Of a DNA stretch of 64,000 bases, positions 4,172-15,078 are shown piece by piece. Position 1 is the first letter of the stretch; every line of letters starts with the position of its first letter. Position numbers and translations under genes: made by a program. Under the pieces are notes generated by a model that was not told the DNA's origin, did no database searches, and saw only the letters and a program-made list of their open reading frames with translations. This stretch comes from Phycisphaerales bacterium (GTDB lineage Bacteria > Planctomycetota > Phycisphaerae > Phycisphaerales > UBA1924), in contig JADLFE010000050.1 in NCBI GenBank assembly GCA_020845755.1, positions 1 through 64,000 of the forward strand, given 5' to 3'.

Positions 4172-4414
4172 GCTCTGGGGTACCGTCCGCCGGCGCCGCA
4201 AACGATCCCGATGCCGGCCTTCGAACGCGACGCGTGGAGGCCTGCTCCGCTGCGATCCGCAGCCCTCCACGGCCCGCACTCACGAGTGAATCTGGGACAG
4301 AGACTGTGGTACGAACCGTGGGGCATGTTACCTTTCGACTCTCGCATGCCTGGTTGAAATCCCACGTTGCCGATCGAATGGTCGTTCTCGCAGGTCGTAG
4401 CCACTTGGTCTGGC

Positions 4415-4443
4415 TTGCGAATTTGTGGACACGCCCGTACATT
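4415..4443 (+). promoter_or_regulatory. Candidate sigma-70-type promoter for the ferredoxin/NrfD fusion gene
   Basis: A TTGCGA box (4415-4420) and a TACATT box (4438-4443) are separated by exactly 17 nt, each matching four of six consensus positions. Transcription would begin near 4450, which is where a short hairpin starts. In such GC-rich DNA this spacing is suggestive but not decisive. Confidence 0.3.
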
Positions 4444-4449
4444 GCACTA

Positions 4450-4465
4450 CTCGCGAAGCCGCGAG
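4450..4465 (+). promoter_or_regulatory. 5'-UTR hairpin next to the ribosome binding site
   Basis: CTCGCG (4450-4455) and CGCGAG (4460-4465) form a perfect 6-bp stem with a 4-nt loop, ending just before the AGGAAAG Shine-Dalgarno-like sequence and the ATG at 4475. It could protect the mRNA 5' end or modulate ribosome access. Confidence 0.3.
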
Positions 4466-4474
4466 AGGAAAGAT

Positions 4475-5953
4475 ATGCGGCGCATGAAATACGGCTTTCT
4501 GATAGACCACGATCGATGCATCGGGTGCCATGCGTGCACGGTGGCGTGTAAGGCCGAGAATGCTGTTCCTGTCGGGAACTTCCGCACGTGGGTGAAGTAC
4601 GTTGAGAAGGGCGCGTTCCCGGAGGTTCGGCGGCATTTCGCGGTGCTTCGTTGCAACCACTGCAATAACGCGCCGTGCGTGAAGATCTGCCCGGTGAACG
4701 CGCTCGAAAAGCGTGCGGACGGGATCGTGGACATCGACCGGGATGCGTGCATCGGCTGCCGTGCTTGCATGCAGGCGTGCCCCTACGACGCGATCTATCT
4801 GAACGAGGACTCTGGTGCCATCGAGAAGTGCCATTTCTGTGCGCACCGCGTGGAGAAGGGGCTGGAGCCGGCGTGCGTAATCGTGTGTCCTGAGCAGGCG
4901 ATCATCGCGGGCGATCTCCAGGACCCCAAGGCGAGAATCTCGCAGATGCTGGCGCAGAACGAGACGATCGTGCGCCGGCCAGAGCAGCGGACCGGACCCA
5001 ACGTGTACTACAAGGGCGTGGAGCCCGCGAATCTCGATCCGGGCGGACCCGAACGGCCATCGAGCTACCTGTGGAGTCAGCGTCCTGCGCACAAGCCCGA
5101 GGCGTGGCCGATTTCGTTGCCTGTGTTGCCCAACACGCGCGTGGTGCTCGATGCGGGGCACAAGGTGGAATGGGGTTGGCAGGTGGCTCTCTACCTGGTC
5201 ACCAAGGGGATCGGCGGAGGGGCCGGGTTCCTCGCACCATTCGTCAAGTGGTCCGGGCTGACGGGGTGGAGCGCGGCGTACCTGCCCGAGGTCGTCGCGC
5301 TCGTGTTCACGCTGATCACGGTCGGTCTGCTGGTCGAAGATCTCAAGAAGCCGTGGGCGTTTTACAGATTGTTCACGCGACCGAACTGGAATAGCTGGCT
5401 GGTCAAGGGCGGGGTGATTCTCGGCGCATTCGGAGCGGTGTCGGCGGCGACTGTTGGCCTTCGGATGCTGGGGCTGGGTGGCGCGGCGGATGGGCTTCGC
5501 TGGGCGGAGATGGTGCTGGGCGCCGGTTCGGCGTGCTACACGGCGTTCCTCTTCGCACAGTGCGAGGGGCGCGACCTGTGGCAGAACCCGCGGCTGCTGG
5601 AGCATCTGGCTGCCCAGTCGATGTTGTGCGGCTCCGTGGCGCTGGCCGCGGGCGGAGCGGCGAGCACCGCCGCGAAGGCGTTGATCGCGGTGTCGGCGTA
5701 CTCGACGATCGGGGCCTCACTGAAGGAGGTGTTCAGCAATCACCAGACTACGAACGCAAAGCAGGGCGCGGCGTTCTTGACGCGGCTCCGGCTCGGGCCG
5801 TTCAACGCGTTCCGGGATGGGCTGATCCTGGTGGGGATTGCGGGCGTGGTCGGGGCGTTCTTCCCCGGGTGGGCGTTCGTGCCGGCGCTGGTCGGCGTGT
5901 ACCTGTATGAATGGGCGTACGTGCGGGCGGGTCAGCTGCCTCCGCTGTCGTGA
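4475..5953 (+). CDS. Fused four-cluster ferredoxin / NrfD-type membrane anchor (CISM electron-transfer subunit)
   Basis: Predicted 492 residues. The N-terminal part of about 180 residues carries four Cys clusters (CIGCHACTVAC, CNHCNNAPCVKIC, CIGCRACMQAC, and CHFC with a distal AC...C). These sixteen cysteines should bind four [4Fe-4S] centres, as in the B subunits of complex iron-sulfur molybdoenzymes. The rest is hydrophobic with roughly six to eight helices and resembles the NrfD/PsrC quinone-binding anchor. B and C subunits are usually separate, so this is a fusion. The start chosen is the ATG at 4475, behind AGGAAAG and immediately before the first cluster. The catalytic subunit gene follows after 23 nt. 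Likely role: passing electrons between the molybdenum subunit and the quinone pool. Confidence 0.85.
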   Translation: MRRMKYGFLIDHDRCIGCHACTVACKAENAVPVGNFRTWVKYVEKGAFPEVRRHFAVLRCNHCNNAPCVKICPVNALEKRADGIVDIDRDACIGCRACMQACPYDAIYLNEDSGAIEKCHFCAHRVEKGLEPACVIVCPEQAIIAGDLQDPKARISQMLAQNETIVRRPEQRTGPNVYYKGVEPANLDPGGPERPSSYLWSQRPAHKPEAWPISLPVLPNTRVVLDAGHKVEWGWQVALYLVTKGIGGGAGFLAPFVKWSGLTGWSAAYLPEVVALVFTLITVGLLVEDLKKPWAFYRLFTRPNWNSWLVKGGVILGAFGAVSAATVGLRMLGLGGAADGLRWAEMVLGAGSACYTAFLFAQCEGRDLWQNPRLLEHLAAQSMLCGSVALAAGGAASTAAKALIAVSAYSTIGASLKEVFSNHQTTNAKQGAAFLTRLRLGPFNAFRDGLILVGIAGVVGAFFPGWAFVPALVGVYLYEWAYVRAGQLPPLS

Positions 5954-5976
5954 TGATTTCGAGCGAGTGACTTACC

Positions 5977-8760
5977 ATGATCGATCCACCCGGCATGCGC
6001 GTAACGCCGCTCGAATCGTTTCCTCCACTCGATCAGTGGGACGACTGGGCGGAGTATGAGTCGACGGCCTGGCCGCGCAAGGTCGAGAAGAAGTACATGC
6101 TCGTGCCGACGACATGCTTCAACTGCGAGGCGGCGTGCGGGCTGGTGGCATACATCGACAAGGAAACCAAGCAGATCCGCAAGCTAGAGGGGAATCCGTA
6201 TCACCCGGGTTCGCGCGGGCGGAACTGCGCCAAGGGGCCTGCGACGCTCAATCAGATCGATGACCCCGAGCGAATTCTGTATCCGCTCAAGCGGGTCGGG
6301 AAGCGTGGGAGCGGGAAGTTCGAGCGAACGACGTGGGACGAGGCGCTCAACGCGATCGCGGCTCCCATCCGGAAGGCGCTGATCGAGAACCGGCGCACCG
6401 AAGTGATGTATCACGTGGGGCGGCCGGGGCACGACGGTTACATGGATCGAGTGCTGCAGGCCTGGGGCGTCGACGGGCACAACTCGCATACGAACGTGTG
6501 CTCGGCGGCGGCGCGCGTCGGGTACGCGACGTGGATGGGCGCGGATCGCCCGTCACCCGATCACGCCAACGCGAAGTTCATTCTGCTGCTCTCGTCGCAC
6601 CTGGAGACGGGGCACTACTTCAACCCGCACGCACAACGGATCATCGACGCCAAGGCCGCGGGCGCCAAGATTTGCGCGGTTGACGTGCGGCTCTCAAACA
6701 CCGCATCGATGGCGGACTACTGGCTGGCGCCCTGGCCGGGCACCGAGGCGATGCTGCTGCTTGCGATCGCCAACGTGATCCTCTCCGAAGGACTCTTTGA
6801 TCGGACGTTTGTCGAGACGTGGGTCAACTGGCGCGACTATCTGAAGGTCAAGGTCGGCGGGGCGGGAACGTTCGACGATTTCATCCGCTCGTTGAAAGAG
6901 CACTACGCGTTCGCGACACCCGAGACGGCGGCGAAGGAATGCGACGTTTCCGCGGAAACGATCGTGAAGGTCGCGCGAGAGATCGGCGCGGCCGGCTCGC
7001 GTTTCGCGGCACACGTGTGGCGCAACGCGGCGGCGGGAAACCTCGGCGGGTGGCAGGTCGCGCGCAGCCTCATGCTCATTTCGGCGCTCGTGGGCGCGGT
7101 GGGCACACCCGGCGGCACGAACCCGAACACGCGCGACAAGTTCGTTCCGCCTCCGTTCCTCAAGCCGCCGGCGCAGAGCGTGTGGAACGAGCTGTTGTAC
7201 CCGCGCGAGTACCCGCTGTCGTATCACGAACTGTCGTATCTCCTGCCTCACATGATGCTGGAAGGGCGGGGCAAACTGGCGGCGTATTTCACGCGGGTGT
7301 ACAACCCGGTGTGGACGAATCCTGACGGGATGGTGTGGGAGCGTGTGCTTCGCGATGAGAATCTGATCGGGCTGCACGCGGCGATCACGCCCGTCTGGAG
7401 CGAGACGGCCCAGTACGCGGACTATGTCCTGCCGACGGGCGTCGGGGCCGAGCGGCACGACCTGATGAGCCAGGAGACGCACGCGGCCCAGTGGATCAGT
7501 TTCCGCCAGCCGGTGCTGCGCGTGATGCGAGAGCGGATGGGTGAGACGTTTGAGTGGACCTATCAGGCCAATCCGGGCGAGGTGTGGGAAGAGGATGAGT
7601 TCTGGATCGCGCTTTCATGGCGGATCGATCCGGACGGATCGCTCGGTGTGCGCCGGTACTTTGAATCGCCGTACCGGAAGGAAGGCGGCGGGCAGCGGAT
7701 CACCGTCGAGGAGTATTACCGCTGGATCTTCGAGAACTCCGTCCCCGGCCTGCGCGCCGAGGCGGAGAAGCGTGGGCTTTCGCCGCTGCAATACATGCGC
7801 CGGTTCGGCGCGTTCCTGGTGAACGAGGACACCTACCACGGGCACATGGAATCGCTCCCGGCAAAGGAGATGGAGGGCGCGGAACTGGATCACGCGTCGG
7901 GCGACGTGATGAAGGGCGGCAAGTCAATCGGCGTGATCGCGGACGGCAAGGCGTGCACCGGGTTCAAGACGCCGAGCAAGCGGCTCGAGCTCTTCAGCGC
8001 GACGCTGGCGGATTGGGGATGGCCCGAATACGCGCTCCCGGCCTACATCACCAGCCACATTCATCGCGGGGCGATGAACCGGGACAAGGGTGAGTATTGC
8101 CTGGTTCCCACCTTTCGCCTGCCGACACTGATCCACACGCGATCGGGAAACTCCAAGTGGCTCTATGAACTCTCCAACTGCAATCCGCTTTGGGTCCATC
8201 CGAGCGACGCCGAACGCATCGGCGTGGGGCTCGGGGATTTGGTCCGCGTCTCGACGGAAATCGGGCACTTTGTGAATCGCGTGTGGGTCACCGAGGGGAT
8301 GCGCCCCGGCGTGGTCGCGTGCTCGCACCACCTTGGCCGCTGGCGGTTGTTCGAGGATGTCGGCACCGATCGCTGGGCCAGCGCGCTGGTGTCGCGAGAG
8401 GAAGTCTCGCCGGGTCAGTTCCGCTTCCGGAGGCTTGCGGACGTCGGGCCCTTTGTGAGCAGCGACCCGGATTCCAAGCGGGTCTGGTGGACCGACGGCG
8501 GGGTCCATCAAAATCTGACGTTTCCCGTCCATCCCGATCCGGTTTCGGGCATGCACTGCTGGCACCAGGCCGTTCGGGTGGAGCGTGCCCGGTCGGACGA
8601 CCGCTACGCCGACGTTTTCGTCGACACCAACAAGTCGATGGAGGTCTACAAGCGCTGGCTGGCGATGACACGGCCCGCGCCGGGACCGGGCGGCCTGCGT
8701 CGGCCATTGTGGCTGGCGCGGGCGGTGCGGCCGAGTGACGACGCGTACCGGATCGGTTGA
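5977..8760 (+). CDS. Molybdopterin oxidoreductase, DMSO-reductase family (candidate sulfite dehydrogenase SoeA-like)
   Basis: Predicted 927-residue catalytic subunit. It has an N-terminal [4Fe-4S] site (C47, C50, C54 and C84, in CFNCEAAC and NCAKG) and a probable Mo-ligating cysteine at C175 in SHTNVCSAAAR. There is no twin-arginine signal, so it should face the cytoplasm. That rules against periplasmic polysulfide or tetrathionate reductases and fits SoeA-type cytoplasmic sulfite dehydrogenase. The partner encoded upstream supplies ferredoxin clusters and a membrane anchor. A TauE/SafE exporter lies downstream, which also points to sulfur oxyanions. The family is sure; the substrate is an inference, and formate or another oxyanion remains possible. 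Confidence 0.85.
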   Translation: MIDPPGMRVTPLESFPPLDQWDDWAEYESTAWPRKVEKKYMLVPTTCFNCEAACGLVAYIDKETKQIRKLEGNPYHPGSRGRNCAKGPATLNQIDDPERILYPLKRVGKRGSGKFERTTWDEALNAIAAPIRKALIENRRTEVMYHVGRPGHDGYMDRVLQAWGVDGHNSHTNVCSAAARVGYATWMGADRPSPDHANAKFILLLSSHLETGHYFNPHAQRIIDAKAAGAKICAVDVRLSNTASMADYWLAPWPGTEAMLLLAIANVILSEGLFDRTFVETWVNWRDYLKVKVGGAGTFDDFIRSLKEHYAFATPETAAKECDVSAETIVKVAREIGAAGSRFAAHVWRNAAAGNLGGWQVARSLMLISALVGAVGTPGGTNPNTRDKFVPPPFLKPPAQSVWNELLYPREYPLSYHELSYLLPHMMLEGRGKLAAYFTRVYNPVWTNPDGMVWERVLRDENLIGLHAAITPVWSETAQYADYVLPTGVGAERHDLMSQETHAAQWISFRQPVLRVMRERMGETFEWTYQANPGEVWEEDEFWIALSWRIDPDGSLGVRRYFESPYRKEGGGQRITVEEYYRWIFENSVPGLRAEAEKRGLSPLQYMRRFGAFLVNEDTYHGHMESLPAKEMEGAELDHASGDVMKGGKSIGVIADGKACTGFKTPSKRLELFSATLADWGWPEYALPAYITSHIHRGAMNRDKGEYCLVPTFRLPTLIHTRSGNSKWLYELSNCNPLWVHPSDAERIGVGLGDLVRVSTEIGHFVNRVWVTEGMRPGVVACSHHLGRWRLFEDVGTDRWASALVSREEVSPGQFRFRRLADVGPFVSSDPDSKRVWWTDGGVHQNLTFPVHPDPVSGMHCWHQAVRVERARSDDRYADVFVDTNKSMEVYKRWLAMTRPAPGPGGLRRPLWLARAVRPSDDAYRIG

Positions 8761-8889
8761 TCGAAGACGCGCCGGGGCGCTGGTGCTACGTCAAGGTGCG
8801 TGGGTGCGATGTCATGCCGCCAGAGCGACGTAATGCACGGCGTGGCCCTTGGTGCTATCGTTGGCCCTTGCATTTCCCGGGAGTTTCGG

Positions 8890-9699
8890 TTGACCATCGA
8901 CCAGGCATCGATCGTCGCGCTCATCGGACTTGTCGCGGGCACGTTGGGTGGCATCGCCGGCGTGGGCGGCTCCGTGCTCATTCTGCCGGCGCTCCACATC
9001 GTCTTTTCGCCGATTCTGTTCGGCGAGTCGGCCGATCCGCAGGTTCACCACTCGTATATGGCCGCGGGGATGACGGTGAACGTTGCGGTGTCGATCCCTG
9101 CGGCATGGCGACACCATCGTGAGGGCGCGGTGAATACGGGCATCCTCTCGCGTCTGATCCTCAGCCACCTGCTGGCGATCATCTCGGGTGTACAGATATC
9201 CAATATGCTCTCGGGAGGCGTGCTGCAGGTGTGCCTGGCCGTTGCGCTCATGCTGTACTGCTTCTGGAACCTGCGTATGCTGGCCCGCCCGCGCCGGCGC
9301 ACGTTTGACGGCAAGGGGCGCGTTGAGCGATCGACGACGCCTCGGCTGGTGTTCTGCGGCTTTAGCACCGGGCTGCTTGGTGGCTTGCTCGGGCTGGGCG
9401 GCGGATTCCTGCTCGTGCCGCTCCTGCAACTCATCTGCAACCTGCGCCTCAAGAACGCCATCGCGACGAGTTCGGCGGTGCTGTGCATCACGGCGGGTGT
9501 CGGCGCGATTCTCAAACTCGCTACGCTCTACCAGCACGGACAGTCGGTCGGATATGCGCTCTCCCTGGCGGCGTGCATGGCGCCGACGGGAATCCTCGGC
9601 GGATGGCTGGGAGCCAAGTGGGTTCATCACATGCCCGTAAGCGCCGTGCGCCTGGTGATGACCGGGCTCATTATGCTCGCGGCGACGAAGATCCTCTAG
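8890..9699 (+). CDS. TauE/SafE-family sulfite/sulfonate-type anion exporter
   Basis: Predicted 269-residue polytopic membrane protein with the two-fold repeat of TauE/SafE: a glycine-rich GTLGGIAGVGGS segment near the N-terminus and a second GLLGGLLGLGGGFLLVPLL segment in the middle. This family exports sulfite, sulfoacetate and related anions. The start chosen is a TTG at 8890 with GGGAG six nt upstream; an ATG at 8833 would add 19 residues. It follows the molybdoenzyme gene on the same strand, so it may move sulfite across the membrane for, or away from, that enzyme. The family is secure; the substrate is inferred from context. Confidence 0.82.
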   Translation: MTIDQASIVALIGLVAGTLGGIAGVGGSVLILPALHIVFSPILFGESADPQVHHSYMAAGMTVNVAVSIPAAWRHHREGAVNTGILSRLILSHLLAIISGVQISNMLSGGVLQVCLAVALMLYCFWNLRMLARPRRRTFDGKGRVERSTTPRLVFCGFSTGLLGGLLGLGGGFLLVPLLQLICNLRLKNAIATSSAVLCITAGVGAILKLATLYQHGQSVGYALSLAACMAPTGILGGWLGAKWVHHMPVSAVRLVMTGLIMLAATKIL

Positions 9700-9719: not shown

Positions 9720-11105
9720 TCAATACGGCGCGGCCTGAGATTCTCCGGGCGAGTGAGCCTGAGCGTCAGCGGCTTCGCGCTTTGGCACGGGCAGGAACCA
9801 TGACCATGTCAATCGCGCTACGCCCGCAAACACGGACAGCCCGCCCAGCAAAAACGCGTACGGGAACCAGCCCGGCCAGAGGCTCCGGCTGGGCAGAATG
9901 CCAGCCTGCCACCGGTCGAGGGAGTCTGAGATGCCGACCGTCATGAACGAGGACCAGATGATCATCGCTCCAATGTTGAAGAGCGCAATCCCAAAGCGTG
10001 AGAGCGTCACGCGCCCTGCGTGGTCTTGGAGATGTATCCATCCCAGCACGGCGAGCAGGCCCATCGTGTCGATTCCCACCATGCTGCTCATCGCGTGGCC
10101 CGCGACCACCAGCGTGCCATGGACGAGCGCGTTGACCGGCGGAACCGATATAACGATGGAGAGCGTGAGTCCGACAAACGTCCAAGTAGTGGTCGCGGCC
10201 AGCAGCCAGGTCACGCCATCCCAAGGCTTGCCGTCTCGCAGGCGACGTGCAATCCCGAGAACGTCATAGGCGACCTTGGCAAGAATCGCGATCTCTGACA
10301 TGCTGATGACGAAACTCGTCCACTTGACGATCAGGGATTGTGGAAGATGAAACGTGTGGTGCCCGTAGTTGGTGAAACTGTTGAGCACGCCGACGATGAA
10401 GAGAGCGAAGGCCATACGTGAGCGCGAGTAGTCGCGTGCCGGGTTCAGGCGATGGCCGAGGTAGGCCAGCGCGCCATAGACCAGGAGATTGAATGAACCG
10501 ACAAGCGTGCCGTAGGACTTCCACTCCACCGCCATGTCACGGATCGGGTGGGCTTTGAAATAGGGAAGCAGGAAGACATGCGTTTCGACGAACGCGTACG
10601 TGAAGAGGCCCAAGCTCGTGAACCACATCCAGAGGTAGGCCGGCTTCGGCCCCGGCACCTCGGGACAATCGCGCGTGAATCCAATCGCAAGCACTCCCCA
10701 GCCAACCCAGAAGAGCACCGACGCCGGTTCGGACGCAAAGAAATACTCGCGACCGCCGTAGATCTTGAGCAAGAGTGTCACAACGACAACCAGCGCGCCA
10801 AGCACCCAAGTCCAGATGAAGAACTTGAGCGCCCCGGCCGCACGCGACGACTCGCGCCGCGTATCGCTGGACCAGAAGTAGGTGACAACCGCGAGGCCAC
10901 CGAGGTACATCCACGCGGTTCCAGCGAGCAGGTGGAGCGGGCGGATGGTCTGGAACGAGATGCCCAAAATATCAAGGAAGTTGTACGCTTTGGTGTAGAA
11001 GAGCGCGCCGACCAGGCCCACGCCCAGGGCGATCCACAGGCACAGCAACCCGAATCGCGTCAGGAAACGTCGCCCACGATCCAGATCGGAATTACCTGGC
11101 GTCAT
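9720..11105 (-). CDS. Divergent NorB-like haem-copper oxidase superfamily subunit I
   Basis: Predicted 461-residue polytopic protein resembling the nitric-oxide-reductase large subunit. Seen: a helix II haem histidine (H58 in RPLHLLAG), a GREYFFASE segment like NorB, the adjacent metal histidines H249-H250 in NYGHHTFH, the NorB-like E271, and HGTLVVAGHAM (H329, H337). Differences: by alignment from memory, the FeB histidine of helix VI is Y170 (YAFVETH, E174 kept, extra H176), and the second histidine of the usual HxH pair, a low-spin haem ligand, is M339. Start ATG 11105 has GGAGGT at 11110-11115 and overlaps the end of the cytochrome gene by 14 nt. The family is fairly sure; activity as a canonical NO reductase is not. 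Confidence 0.8.
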   Translation of the reverse strand: MTPGNSDLDRGRRFLTRFGLLCLWIALGVGLVGALFYTKAYNFLDILGISFQTIRPLHLLAGTAWMYLGGLAVVTYFWSSDTRRESSRAAGALKFFIWTWVLGALVVVVTLLLKIYGGREYFFASEPASVLFWVGWGVLAIGFTRDCPEVPGPKPAYLWMWFTSLGLFTYAFVETHVFLLPYFKAHPIRDMAVEWKSYGTLVGSFNLLVYGALAYLGHRLNPARDYSRSRMAFALFIVGVLNSFTNYGHHTFHLPQSLIVKWTSFVISMSEIAILAKVAYDVLGIARRLRDGKPWDGVTWLLAATTTWTFVGLTLSIVISVPPVNALVHGTLVVAGHAMSSMVGIDTMGLLAVLGWIHLQDHAGRVTLSRFGIALFNIGAMIIWSSFMTVGISDSLDRWQAGILPSRSLWPGWFPYAFLLGGLSVFAGVARLTWSWFLPVPKREAADAQAHSPGESQAAPY

Positions 11106-11889
11106 GAGCACCTCCCGCGGGCTGGCCCGGCTCGCTGGTGCGCGATCGCGATTGATAATTCCACCAGGGGAGCGGGCCGCGTGATTCACGCTGGCGAGAG
11201 AGCAGTTCCGCTCGGTGCTCGTTCAGGGCTCTGAGCAGTTCAGCCACCTTGGTCGCATCGCCGCTGTTCATCGCAAACGTTGGCATGCTCCCTCGCCCGG
11301 CGCGGAGCAGCACGCGCAGCCCCACGAGGCTGTTGCGTTCCCACGCGCGGGTGAGATCGGGCGAGCCGAACTGCCCGACGCGCAGCGGCTGATGACAGCG
11401 GGCACATTCGAACTTGGTGAAGATTTCGATCCCCGGCGCGGTGGACTCCGATCGCACAACCTCAAAGGTGTCGCTCCACGAGAGCGGTGTTGCCGACGGC
11501 GCCGGATGTCCCTGCCCCGAGCGGTCCATCTCCCTCAGAAACGTGTAGAGTTCCTTGCCCGCGGCGTCTTCCATCCTGACGCCTGGCATCGGCCCGGTGC
11601 CCTTCTTCAAGATGTCGAGGAACGTGGGCTCATCGACGCGCTGCGCGACGTGCGTGAGGTCGGGGCCGAGGTAGCCCCCGAAGCCATAGATCTGGTGGCA
11701 CACGACGCAGTTCTGGGCACGCCAGTGCATGAACCCGTTGCGGCCGGAGGGCGAGAGTGTGGTGAACGCGCTGGCATCCCCCTCCGGATCATCGCGGTAC
11801 ACGACGATTCCGAGCGCAAAGAAGCACGCCGCCGTGAGGGCGAACACAAGGGCACGCGCCGAGAATCTCGATCGTTGAGTACTCATCAC
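11092..11889 (-). CDS. NorC-like membrane-anchored dihaem cytochrome c
   Basis: Predicted 265 residues (GTG at 11889; the ATG at 11886 is equally possible). An N-terminal membrane anchor of about 20 residues precedes two similar cytochrome domains. The first has CVVCHQ followed by GYLGPDLT and a later PMPGVRM; the second has CARCHQ, FGSPDLT and SMPTFAM. The two CXXCH sites and the distal methionines suggest two c-type haems. Canonical NorC has one haem, so this looks like a duplication of the NorC domain. It overlaps the NorB-like gene by 14 nt, so the two very likely form one complex that accepts electrons from periplasmic donors. No norQ or norD gene is visible nearby. Confidence 0.82.
   Translation of the reverse strand: MMSTQRSRFSARALVFALTAACFFALGIVVYRDDPEGDASAFTTLSPSGRNGFMHWRAQNCVVCHQIYGFGGYLGPDLTHVAQRVDEPTFLDILKKGTGPMPGVRMEDAAGKELYTFLREMDRSGQGHPAPSATPLSWSDTFEVVRSESTAPGIEIFTKFECARCHQPLRVGQFGSPDLTRAWERNSLVGLRVLLRAGRGSMPTFAMNSGDATKVAELLRALNEHRAELLSRQRESRGPLPWWNYQSRSRTSEPGQPAGGAHDAR
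11110..11115 (-). promoter_or_regulatory. Shine-Dalgarno that fixes the NorB-like start
   Basis: A perfect GGAGGT on the minus strand lies 4 nt before the ATG at 11105, inside the 3' end of the preceding cytochrome gene. It favours 11105 over the upstream alternative at 11189 and implies translational coupling. Confidence 0.65.
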
Positions 11890-12874: not shown

Positions 12875-13534
12875 TCAGCCCACCAAGCCAGTTTCAAAGG
12901 CGAGCGCAGTCAGGCGAGTGCGATCATCGATTCGCAGCGCGTGCATGAGTCGCGACACATGGCGCTCGACCGTGCGGATGCTCAAATGCATGTGCGACGC
13001 CATGGCCGCGTTGTCTTGTCCGCGCCCGATGTAGCGAAGCACCTCAATCTCACGCGGAGTCAGAGACGCCAGCCGCGTGACCATGTCGCCGGAACGCTTC
13101 AACGATGCGGCACGCTGTTGGTCGATTCTGGCGAGCACAGATGCGGAATACACCGACTCGCCACGGAGCACACGGGTGAGAGCATCGACGATGCGCGAGG
13201 GTGGTTCTGATTTGACGAGATAGCCCGCCACCCCGGCGCGGAGCGAGAGATCGATCATGGCGTCCTTGCAGAAGGCACTCAGGATGACGACACGGGTGTC
13301 GGGGGAGACTGCACGGACGTCGATCACAGCGCCGAGAGCGTCGCGTCCGGGCATCTCAATGTCGAGAAGCAGAATGTCGGGTTTGACATTCGAGCAGGCG
13401 TTGATGGCCGCTTGCGCATCTCCAACGCATTCGGCGACATAAAGTCCGGGCGCCTTGGCGATGCTCTGCGCGATCGCATCACGAAGGATTTGGTGATCAT
13501 CGGCGATCACGATGGTGCCGCGTCGCCTTGTCAC
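12875..13534 (-). CDS. LuxR/NarL-family response regulator
   Basis: Predicted 219 residues. The receiver domain has the acidic pair in ADDHQ, the phosphoacceptor D58 in LLLDIEMPG, a serine switch residue in ILSAF and K108 in YLVKSEPP. The C-terminus is a LuxR-type helix-turn-helix (LTPREIEVLRYIGRGQDN, then SIRTVERHVSRLM). The start is GTG at 13534, behind GGAGG and overlapping the stop of the kinase gene as GTGA, so the pair is translationally coupled. A receiver-plus-LuxR layout is typical of FixJ/NarL regulators. It lies on the same strand as the NOR-like operon about 1 kb downstream, which makes that operon a plausible target. No direct evidence of targets is visible. Confidence 0.93.
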   Translation of the reverse strand: MTRRRGTIVIADDHQILRDAIAQSIAKAPGLYVAECVGDAQAAINACSNVKPDILLLDIEMPGRDALGAVIDVRAVSPDTRVVILSAFCKDAMIDLSLRAGVAGYLVKSEPPSRIVDALTRVLRGESVYSASVLARIDQQRAASLKRSGDMVTRLASLTPREIEVLRYIGRGQDNAAMASHMHLSIRTVERHVSRLMHALRIDDRTRLTALAFETGLVG

Positions 13535-15078
13535 AGTGCCTCCGATACGTTCGGCAAGCGGATAACGAAACACGCGCCGTGGGGCTCGGCGACCACGTGC
13601 TCGATGGTTCCGCCGAGCTCGCCGATGATACGTGCTGCGATGGACAGCCCGAGGCCACGCCCGGGTTTGTCGCGATGGGTACTGAACAGGGGCTCGAAAA
13701 TGCGGTTCACGAATTGCGCCGGAACGCCCGGTCCATCGTCGCGCACTCGCACGACGCAGGCGCTGCGATCCGTGCCGGACATGACACCGGCGTGCGCATC
13801 GATGACGATGGTGCCTTGGCCTTGAGTCGCCTCGACTGAGTTGCTGACGAGAAGCCGAAGAACCTGCCCGAGCAATGCCGGTGTTGCGTGGCATTTGAGT
13901 GAGTGGTCGACCTCTCCGGCGCGAAGGATGACGCCGTCGGGCCACAGGGCTTTCAAATCGGCGATCGCGCGACGAACAACCGAGTCGATCGAAATCGTCT
14001 CGAGCACATCGACGGGACCAGGCGACATGGCGTCCATCAATGACGACGAAAGGTTCTGGGCGTGCTGCAGAATATCGAGAGCCCGGGAAATCGGAGTCAT
14101 GTTCGCGGCATCACCATCGATTCCGTACAGCACGGAAGCGGCCGCGAGAACCAGTCCATTGAACTCATGCGCGAAAGCGCACGACAGTTCTGCCGCCGCC
14201 GCCCGACGACGATTTGTCGCCTCCTGTTCAAACGCAATTCGCTGCTCGGTGATGTCGTGAATGATCCCGAGCATTTGCACGGGGATTCCATCATCGGCGA
14301 ACTCGTATCGTCCCACAACGCGAACCCATCGCGTCTCACCCGAATCCCCCATGACACGGAGTTCATGCCGCATGGTCGTCGCGCCGGTCTTCGCGATTGC
14401 GAGTGCGTTCTCAAGGCCGGATCGATCCTCCGGGTGCATGCGTCCGACGAATGACGAATACGTACCTTCGGATGCATCGCGGCCGGAGCCCGCGCCGGAC
14501 ACCTGCGGCGCACTCCAATGAATGCGTCCCGTGCACAGATTCCAGTGCCAAGCGACCATCTCTCCCGCGCCGAGGGCCAGGTCGAGCCAATCGGTGCTCT
14601 GCGCGAGCGAGCGGGTCAGAGTCTTGTTCCGGGTTATGTCCGCATGCTTGATGAGAAGCCCAGTCATCGATTCGACGACCAGCGGTCGGATCTCCGCCGA
14701 GTACCAATTGCCGGATTCACCCGGCCGAGAGCATTCATACTCCTGCGAATAGATCGCTCGCTCTCCGCGCGCGACTCGGAGGCAGCCGTCAAGGAAAGCC
14801 CTTGCATCCGAGCATCCCCGGCGGACAGCGAGTGCGCACTCCTCAAAATAATTGGCCCCAATACCGCATCGCTTTATGTCGCCACCGTCCGTTTCGATGC
14901 GCTCACGCCAGGCTCGATTCATCAGCGTGATAACGCCGCTGTGATCGACGAGTACAGTTGGTGAGGGCAGAGCGTCAAGGATCGCCGCGGCCAATTGGCG
15001 CGACGTCGCGAGACCGGCATGCTCAAGTCCAAAGCCTGACACTGTTGACTGTATGCCCGAGGATGATCCATGCCGCAA
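13531..15078 (-). CDS. Soluble two-PAS sensor histidine kinase
   Basis: Predicted 515 residues without membrane helices, so cytoplasmic sensing is likely. A PAS domain spans about residues 28-150 and a second, PAS_3-like, about 165-280. The kinase core has an AHEFNG H-box (H304), an N-box LLVSNSVEAT, a G1 box RDDGPGVP and a G2 box GRGLGLSIAARI. The proposed start is TTG at 15078; a GTG 13 codons in is an alternative, and neither has a strong Shine-Dalgarno. It overlaps the LuxR-type regulator by 4 nt and should phosphorylate it. The architecture recalls FixL-like soluble PAS kinases, but I cannot show haem binding. Confidence 0.9.
   Translation of the reverse strand: MRHGSSSGIQSTVSGFGLEHAGLATSRQLAAAILDALPSPTVLVDHSGVITLMNRAWRERIETDGGDIKRCGIGANYFEECALAVRRGCSDARAFLDGCLRVARGERAIYSQEYECSRPGESGNWYSAEIRPLVVESMTGLLIKHADITRNKTLTRSLAQSTDWLDLALGAGEMVAWHWNLCTGRIHWSAPQVSGAGSGRDASEGTYSSFVGRMHPEDRSGLENALAIAKTGATTMRHELRVMGDSGETRWVRVVGRYEFADDGIPVQMLGIIHDITEQRIAFEQEATNRRRAAAAELSCAFAHEFNGLVLAAASVLYGIDGDAANMTPISRALDILQHAQNLSSSLMDAMSPGPVDVLETISIDSVVRRAIADLKALWPDGVILRAGEVDHSLKCHATPALLGQVLRLLVSNSVEATQGQGTIVIDAHAGVMSGTDRSACVVRVRDDGPGVPAQFVNRIFEPLFSTHRDKPGRGLGLSIAARIIGELGGTIEHVVAEPHGACFVIRLPNVSEAL

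Follow-up and report, generated by a model that had tools for sequence, protein, structure and literature searches.

Does the reverse-strand open reading frame at positions 9720..11105 of a 64,000-nucleotide stretch of a Phycisphaerales bacterium contig (hereafter, the window) encode a nitric oxide reductase (NOR) whose metal ligands have been replaced, and if so, what might such an enzyme do? The frame is intact, with an unbroken translation of 461 aa and 12 transmembrane helices, and its product carries the COX1 domain (PF00115, 54 bits, above the Pfam cut-off). It is preceded on the same strand by a NorC-like gene (11092..11889) that overlaps it by 14 nt and encodes 265 aa with cytochrome c domains (Pfam) and two CxxCH haem c motifs (CVVCH and CARCH). 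The NorB-like protein matched no NCBIfam model and, searched singly with phmmer, no PDB entry. A family profile was needed: built from 32 sequences, it placed cNOR NorB (4xyd, 2e-21) first among PDB entries, followed by cbb3 CcoN (about 1e-14) and Pseudomonas cNOR, while the best PDB match of the partner was NorC (3o0r_C, 1.1e-5). An AF2 model (pLDDT 89) displays the twelve-helix subunit I fold of the haem-copper superfamily, with Foldseek TM scores of 0.76-0.80 against cbb3 and cNOR structures.

Consecutive forward-strand genes at 4367-9699 encode a Fer4-NrfD fusion, a Mo-bisPGD oxidoreductase and a TauE-type exporter, possibly a sulphur-compound oxidoreductase. A link between these genes and the NorCB-like pair was rejected, as they lie on the opposite strand, converge on the pair and were not seen in relatives. 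About 1 kb upstream, on the strand of the pair, a PAS histidine kinase and a LuxR-type response regulator occupy 12875-15078, and no notable inverted repeat was seen upstream of the norC-like gene.

To read the catalytic residues against a background of relatives, we gathered homologues by searches at class and phylum level, by a scan of named genomes, which matched Bacteroidetes, one MAG of Planctomycetota and another carrying just the label 'bacterium', and by a search of 297 Bacteroidota genomes, 5 of which matched at E < 1e-40. Residue counts refer to a core set of 31 members from Planctomycetota and Bacteroidota, the window's included, and one relative comes from the window's own taxonomic family. 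Across this core, H58, E174, W195, N206, H249, H250, E271, H329, H337 and M339 are invariant. The initial annotation had listed H58, H249-H250 and E271 as kept family residues, and this is borne out in 31/31 members for the first low-spin haem b ligand in helix II (H58, 10932..10934, reverse strand, as are all residue coordinates below), for the two FeB/CuB histidines of helix VII (H249-H250, 10356..10361) and for the helix VIII glutamate shared with cNOR and qNOR (E271, 10293..10295).

Of the six canonical superfamily histidines, which comprise two ligands of the low-spin haem, one of the high-spin haem and three of FeB/CuB, two are replaced, while H58, H249, H250 and H337 remain. The first replacement lies in helix VI, where the motif of all references (an aromatic residue, any three residues, then His) aligns on W195-K196-S197-Y198-G199 within the signature W195-K196-x-x-G199-x-x-x-G203 (10497..10523; alignment to cNOR, qNOR, cbb3 and A-type sequences). 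The FeB/CuB histidine present in every aligned reference oxidase or reductase thus becomes Gly199 (30/31), a placement with which a HMMER alignment to cbb3 concurs, and the NOR-specific glutamate four residues further on becomes Gly203 or Ala (31/31), aligning to Gly203 in one alignment and to a gap beside it in another. A new residue, Lys196 (30/31, one Arg), stands three residues, or one turn, before the lost histidine. The second replacement is in helix X, where the H-x-H of cNOR, qNOR, cbb3 and A-type references aligns column for column on H337-A-M339 (10089..10097), so that the proximal histidine of haem b3 is kept and a methionine stands for the second low-spin haem histidine, just as had been proposed at the outset. 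M339 occurs in 31/31 core members and in both sequences of a sister branch, and because it is so widely conserved it does not reflect chance or sequencing error. Additional Bacteroidota matches outside the 31-member alignment, some of them fragments, show QWKxxG and HxM wherever the region is present.

The initial annotation had also placed Y170, E174 and H176 in helix VI, with Y170 at the position of the first FeB histidine. The missing histidine is real, but its place is taken by Gly199. In the AF2 model helix V spans residues 156-175 and helix VI residues 187-220, so that Y170 to H176 (10578..10598) form the end of helix V, and the suggestion that these three residues act as helix VI ligands depended on a mis-assigned helix. 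Tyr170, a tyrosine in only 12/31 members, was dismissed as a ligand, and so was Tyr198 as a substitute, since that position is Tyr in 6/31 and otherwise N, C, T, S or A. The attention given to E174 and H176 was nonetheless deserved by their conservation (31/31 and 25/31), and with the two now assigned to helix V they bring back a related idea, namely that a metal still sits beside haem b3, held by H249 and H250 together with E174/H176, H253 (28/31) or Lys196, and that the enzyme works as a conventional NO reductase whose ligands have moved. E174, H176 and H253 are found near the periplasmic end of their helices (V and VII), on which side the active site is expected. We regard this arrangement as unlikely, however, for H176 and H253 vary, several members having N or Q there, and an invariant lysine next to a metal site would be unusual.

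Phylogenetic analysis recovered the family as a single clade, with support of 100/98 when the sister sequence L007 was included and 100/100 when it was not. The clade stands apart from every reference group of the tree, which covered cNOR, qNOR, cbb3 and A-type sequences and, as its single B-type member, the eNOR-like L131. It does not group with cNOR, each being separated with strong support, and its placement next to cNOR plus qNOR is weakly supported (75/54). Members of the sister branch (L006, L007) have His at 196 and Asp at 199, do not have E271 and retain HxM. Together, the separate clade, the NorC-like partner and the cNOR NorB best profile match favour the earlier suggestion of a non-classical NOR branch, and the family is a bacterial, apparently unnamed relative of NORs spread over two phyla. 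No description of the signature emerged from the papers searched, outside which lay the NOR census of Murali et al. 2024, and an earlier description is possible. The window's member sits on a long branch, as a decaying or inactive NOR copy with no function of its own might, but its reading frame and partner gene are intact and the signature is common to about 30 genomes in two phyla, making decay a very improbable account.

Evaluating the neighbourhoods of these loci, we found the NorC-like gene preceding the NorB-like gene in nearly all of them; at a few, the upstream stretch was read as a long frame extension across the NorC-like gene. The partner carries two haems c in most members from Planctomycetota; in Bacteroidota, in L063 and L064 and in the sister branch it carries one. 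In L063, L064 and L065, where the NorC is one-haem or unseen, a separate gene for a two-haem cytochrome c lies in the vicinity. A conserved metabolic operon around the pair was ruled out, the NorC-like gene being its sole constant neighbour. In L048 the pair has genes for alternative complex III next to it, and the same gene families occur in L050. Other neighbours include a beta-eliminating lyase (PF01212, tryptophanase/tyrosine phenol-lyase type) in L048, L062, L067 and L071, a PLP decarboxylase family (PF00282) in L010, L066 and L070, and a hydrophobic protein with a HAHSHFAF motif in L012 (10971-12260) and L013 (3451-4677), adjoined by Rrf2 in both and followed by RIC in L012.

Genes that could connect the family to NO are found at some of these loci. 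Repair genes of the RIC/YtfE type, which mark NO stress, were detected close to the pair in one Bacteroidota locus (L012) and in two from Planctomycetota (L048 and L067, L067 in the sister branch), the last missed by the simple gene caller and found by tblastn. A rough estimate that takes one RIC in each 4-Mb genome and 14 kb around each of about 30 loci predicts 0.1 such cases by chance, and their recurrence in three lineages suggests NO stress. Rrf2 regulators occur near the pair in L012, L013, L067 and L071, two of which (L012 and L067) also have hemerythrins there. Most loci, the window's among them, have no NO-stress neighbour, and a search of the window's genome for RIC gave nothing above the cut-off. 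That genome contains no canonical NOR, and its two other COX1-family genes carry A-type and cbb3-type motifs. A search limited to NirK gave 0/33 carrier genomes above the cut-off. The strongly altered catalytic site, the NirK result and the differing neighbours among lineages all fit a complex that turns over no NO and instead works on another substrate (e.g., O2, hydroxylamine or nitrite), as the initial annotation had considered, or serves in electron transfer or sensing. A relative with altered FeB and a changed reaction is known in NOD (PMC10286720). Against this stand the retained NorC-type partner and the NO-stress genes near the pair in three lineages, and O2 reduction in particular is unlikely because the carriers searched also possess other members of the COX1 family, among them canonical oxidases encoded by the window's genome. 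We consider a non-NO role improbable, though hardly negligible.

To summarize the biology, our preferred reading, to which we assign a probability of roughly 45%, is a membrane-bound, NorCB-like complex fed by cytochrome c, in which haem b3, facing a Lys/His distal pocket in place of a standard FeB, consumes NO. Electrons would pass from a periplasmic c-type donor to the NorC-like subunit (two haems c here), then to a low-spin haem b with H58 and M339 as its ligands, a His/Met pairing that should shift the potential of this haem, and on to haem b3 with H337 as proximal ligand. On the distal side the non-haem iron site would be dismantled, the helix VI His and Glu being gone, with H249/H250 and nearby Lys196 left, and the function would be NO reductase or NO-detoxifying activity. 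We infer the haem ligation, the lack of a normal FeB and NO as substrate from these patterns, the link to NO being drawn from ancestry and from the RIC and Rrf2 genes that some lineages have near the pair, and Lys196 is taken to face the active site going only by helix periodicity. The chemistry would be either that of a haem with a cationic distal lysine or that of a different metal site, possibly E174/H176/H253.

In favour of the haem b3 reading we count the helix VI changes (Gly for His, Gly/Ala for Glu and an added Lys in 30/31 core members), HxM in all, the separate clade, the NorC-like partner, the profile match to cNOR NorB and the RIC/YtfE, Rrf2 and hemerythrin genes near some pairs. 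NorQ homologues were sought in the neighbourhoods and none was found; by analogy with cNOR, where NorQ/NorD insert FeB (PMC9976466), this may speak for an FeB-less site, but it is weak evidence because qNOR works without NorQ/NorD (PMC9976466). Counted against it are that cNOR without FeB is stable and fully haemylated but inactive (PMC9976466), that most loci have no NO-stress neighbour, that the window's genome gave no RIC above the cut-off and that carriers yielded no NirK. The further-reaching proposal, of a haem-copper branch that has no second active-site metal, places a lysine by the vacated ligand position and operates as a haem-only respiratory enzyme handling NO (or another substrate) with a His/Met low-spin haem b, is tentative and on the doubtful side.

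These patterns matter because the histidine set common to every reference O2/NO reductase used here is broken in the family clade, and NO, or a similar small molecule, is probably handled by different chemistry than in standard NOR. A natural, conserved lineage with two histidines replaced makes the role of the FeB/CuB site testable, and routine COX1 or NorB-like annotation could lead nitrous oxide inventories to enter these genes under oxidases or NO reductases.

Among known systems, the family resembles cNOR (NorCB), with which it shares the two-gene NorC-NorB layout, a NorC-like cytochrome c partner encoded directly upstream, the haem-copper fold, the retained H58, HH, E271, HGT and helix X His, and the best profile match. 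It differs from cNOR in that, of the FeB ligand set of three His and the helix VI Glu, the HH pair alone remains, in the Met that replaces the second low-spin haem His, in the two haems c of NorC in most members, in its separate clade and in having no NorQ gene nearby. The qNOR and NOD enzymes belong to the same superfamily. Unlike qNOR, the family has no fused N-terminal domain (461 aa here vs 752-785 aa) and lies apart in trees. In NOD an altered FeB ligand of the helix VII pair (H560N by qNOR numbering) goes with a new reaction (PMC10286720), whereas by residue comparison the helix VII HH pair is intact here. The cbb3 subunit CcoN is the closest PDB fold by Foldseek E-value and has the QW motif of helix VI in common, but the family does not have its helix VI CuB His, possesses the NOR-like E271 and forms a separate clade. 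Among the described NOR classes (cNOR, qNOR, bNOR, eNOR, sNOR, gNOR and nNOR; PMC11388526, PMC12569097), bNOR, eNOR, sNOR, gNOR and nNOR are related to B-family oxidases (PMC11388526), and the family, with its NorC-like partner and its place apart from the one B-type sequence in the tree, probably differs from bNOR, sNOR, gNOR and nNOR. A B-type haem-copper subunit in our collection (L131; G332 C108 8500-11000) carries in helix VI the sequence GHPAQQ, which resembles the Gln marker of eNOR. From eNOR itself the family is distinguished by WKxxG in place of HPxxQ and by its position apart from the eNOR-like L131.
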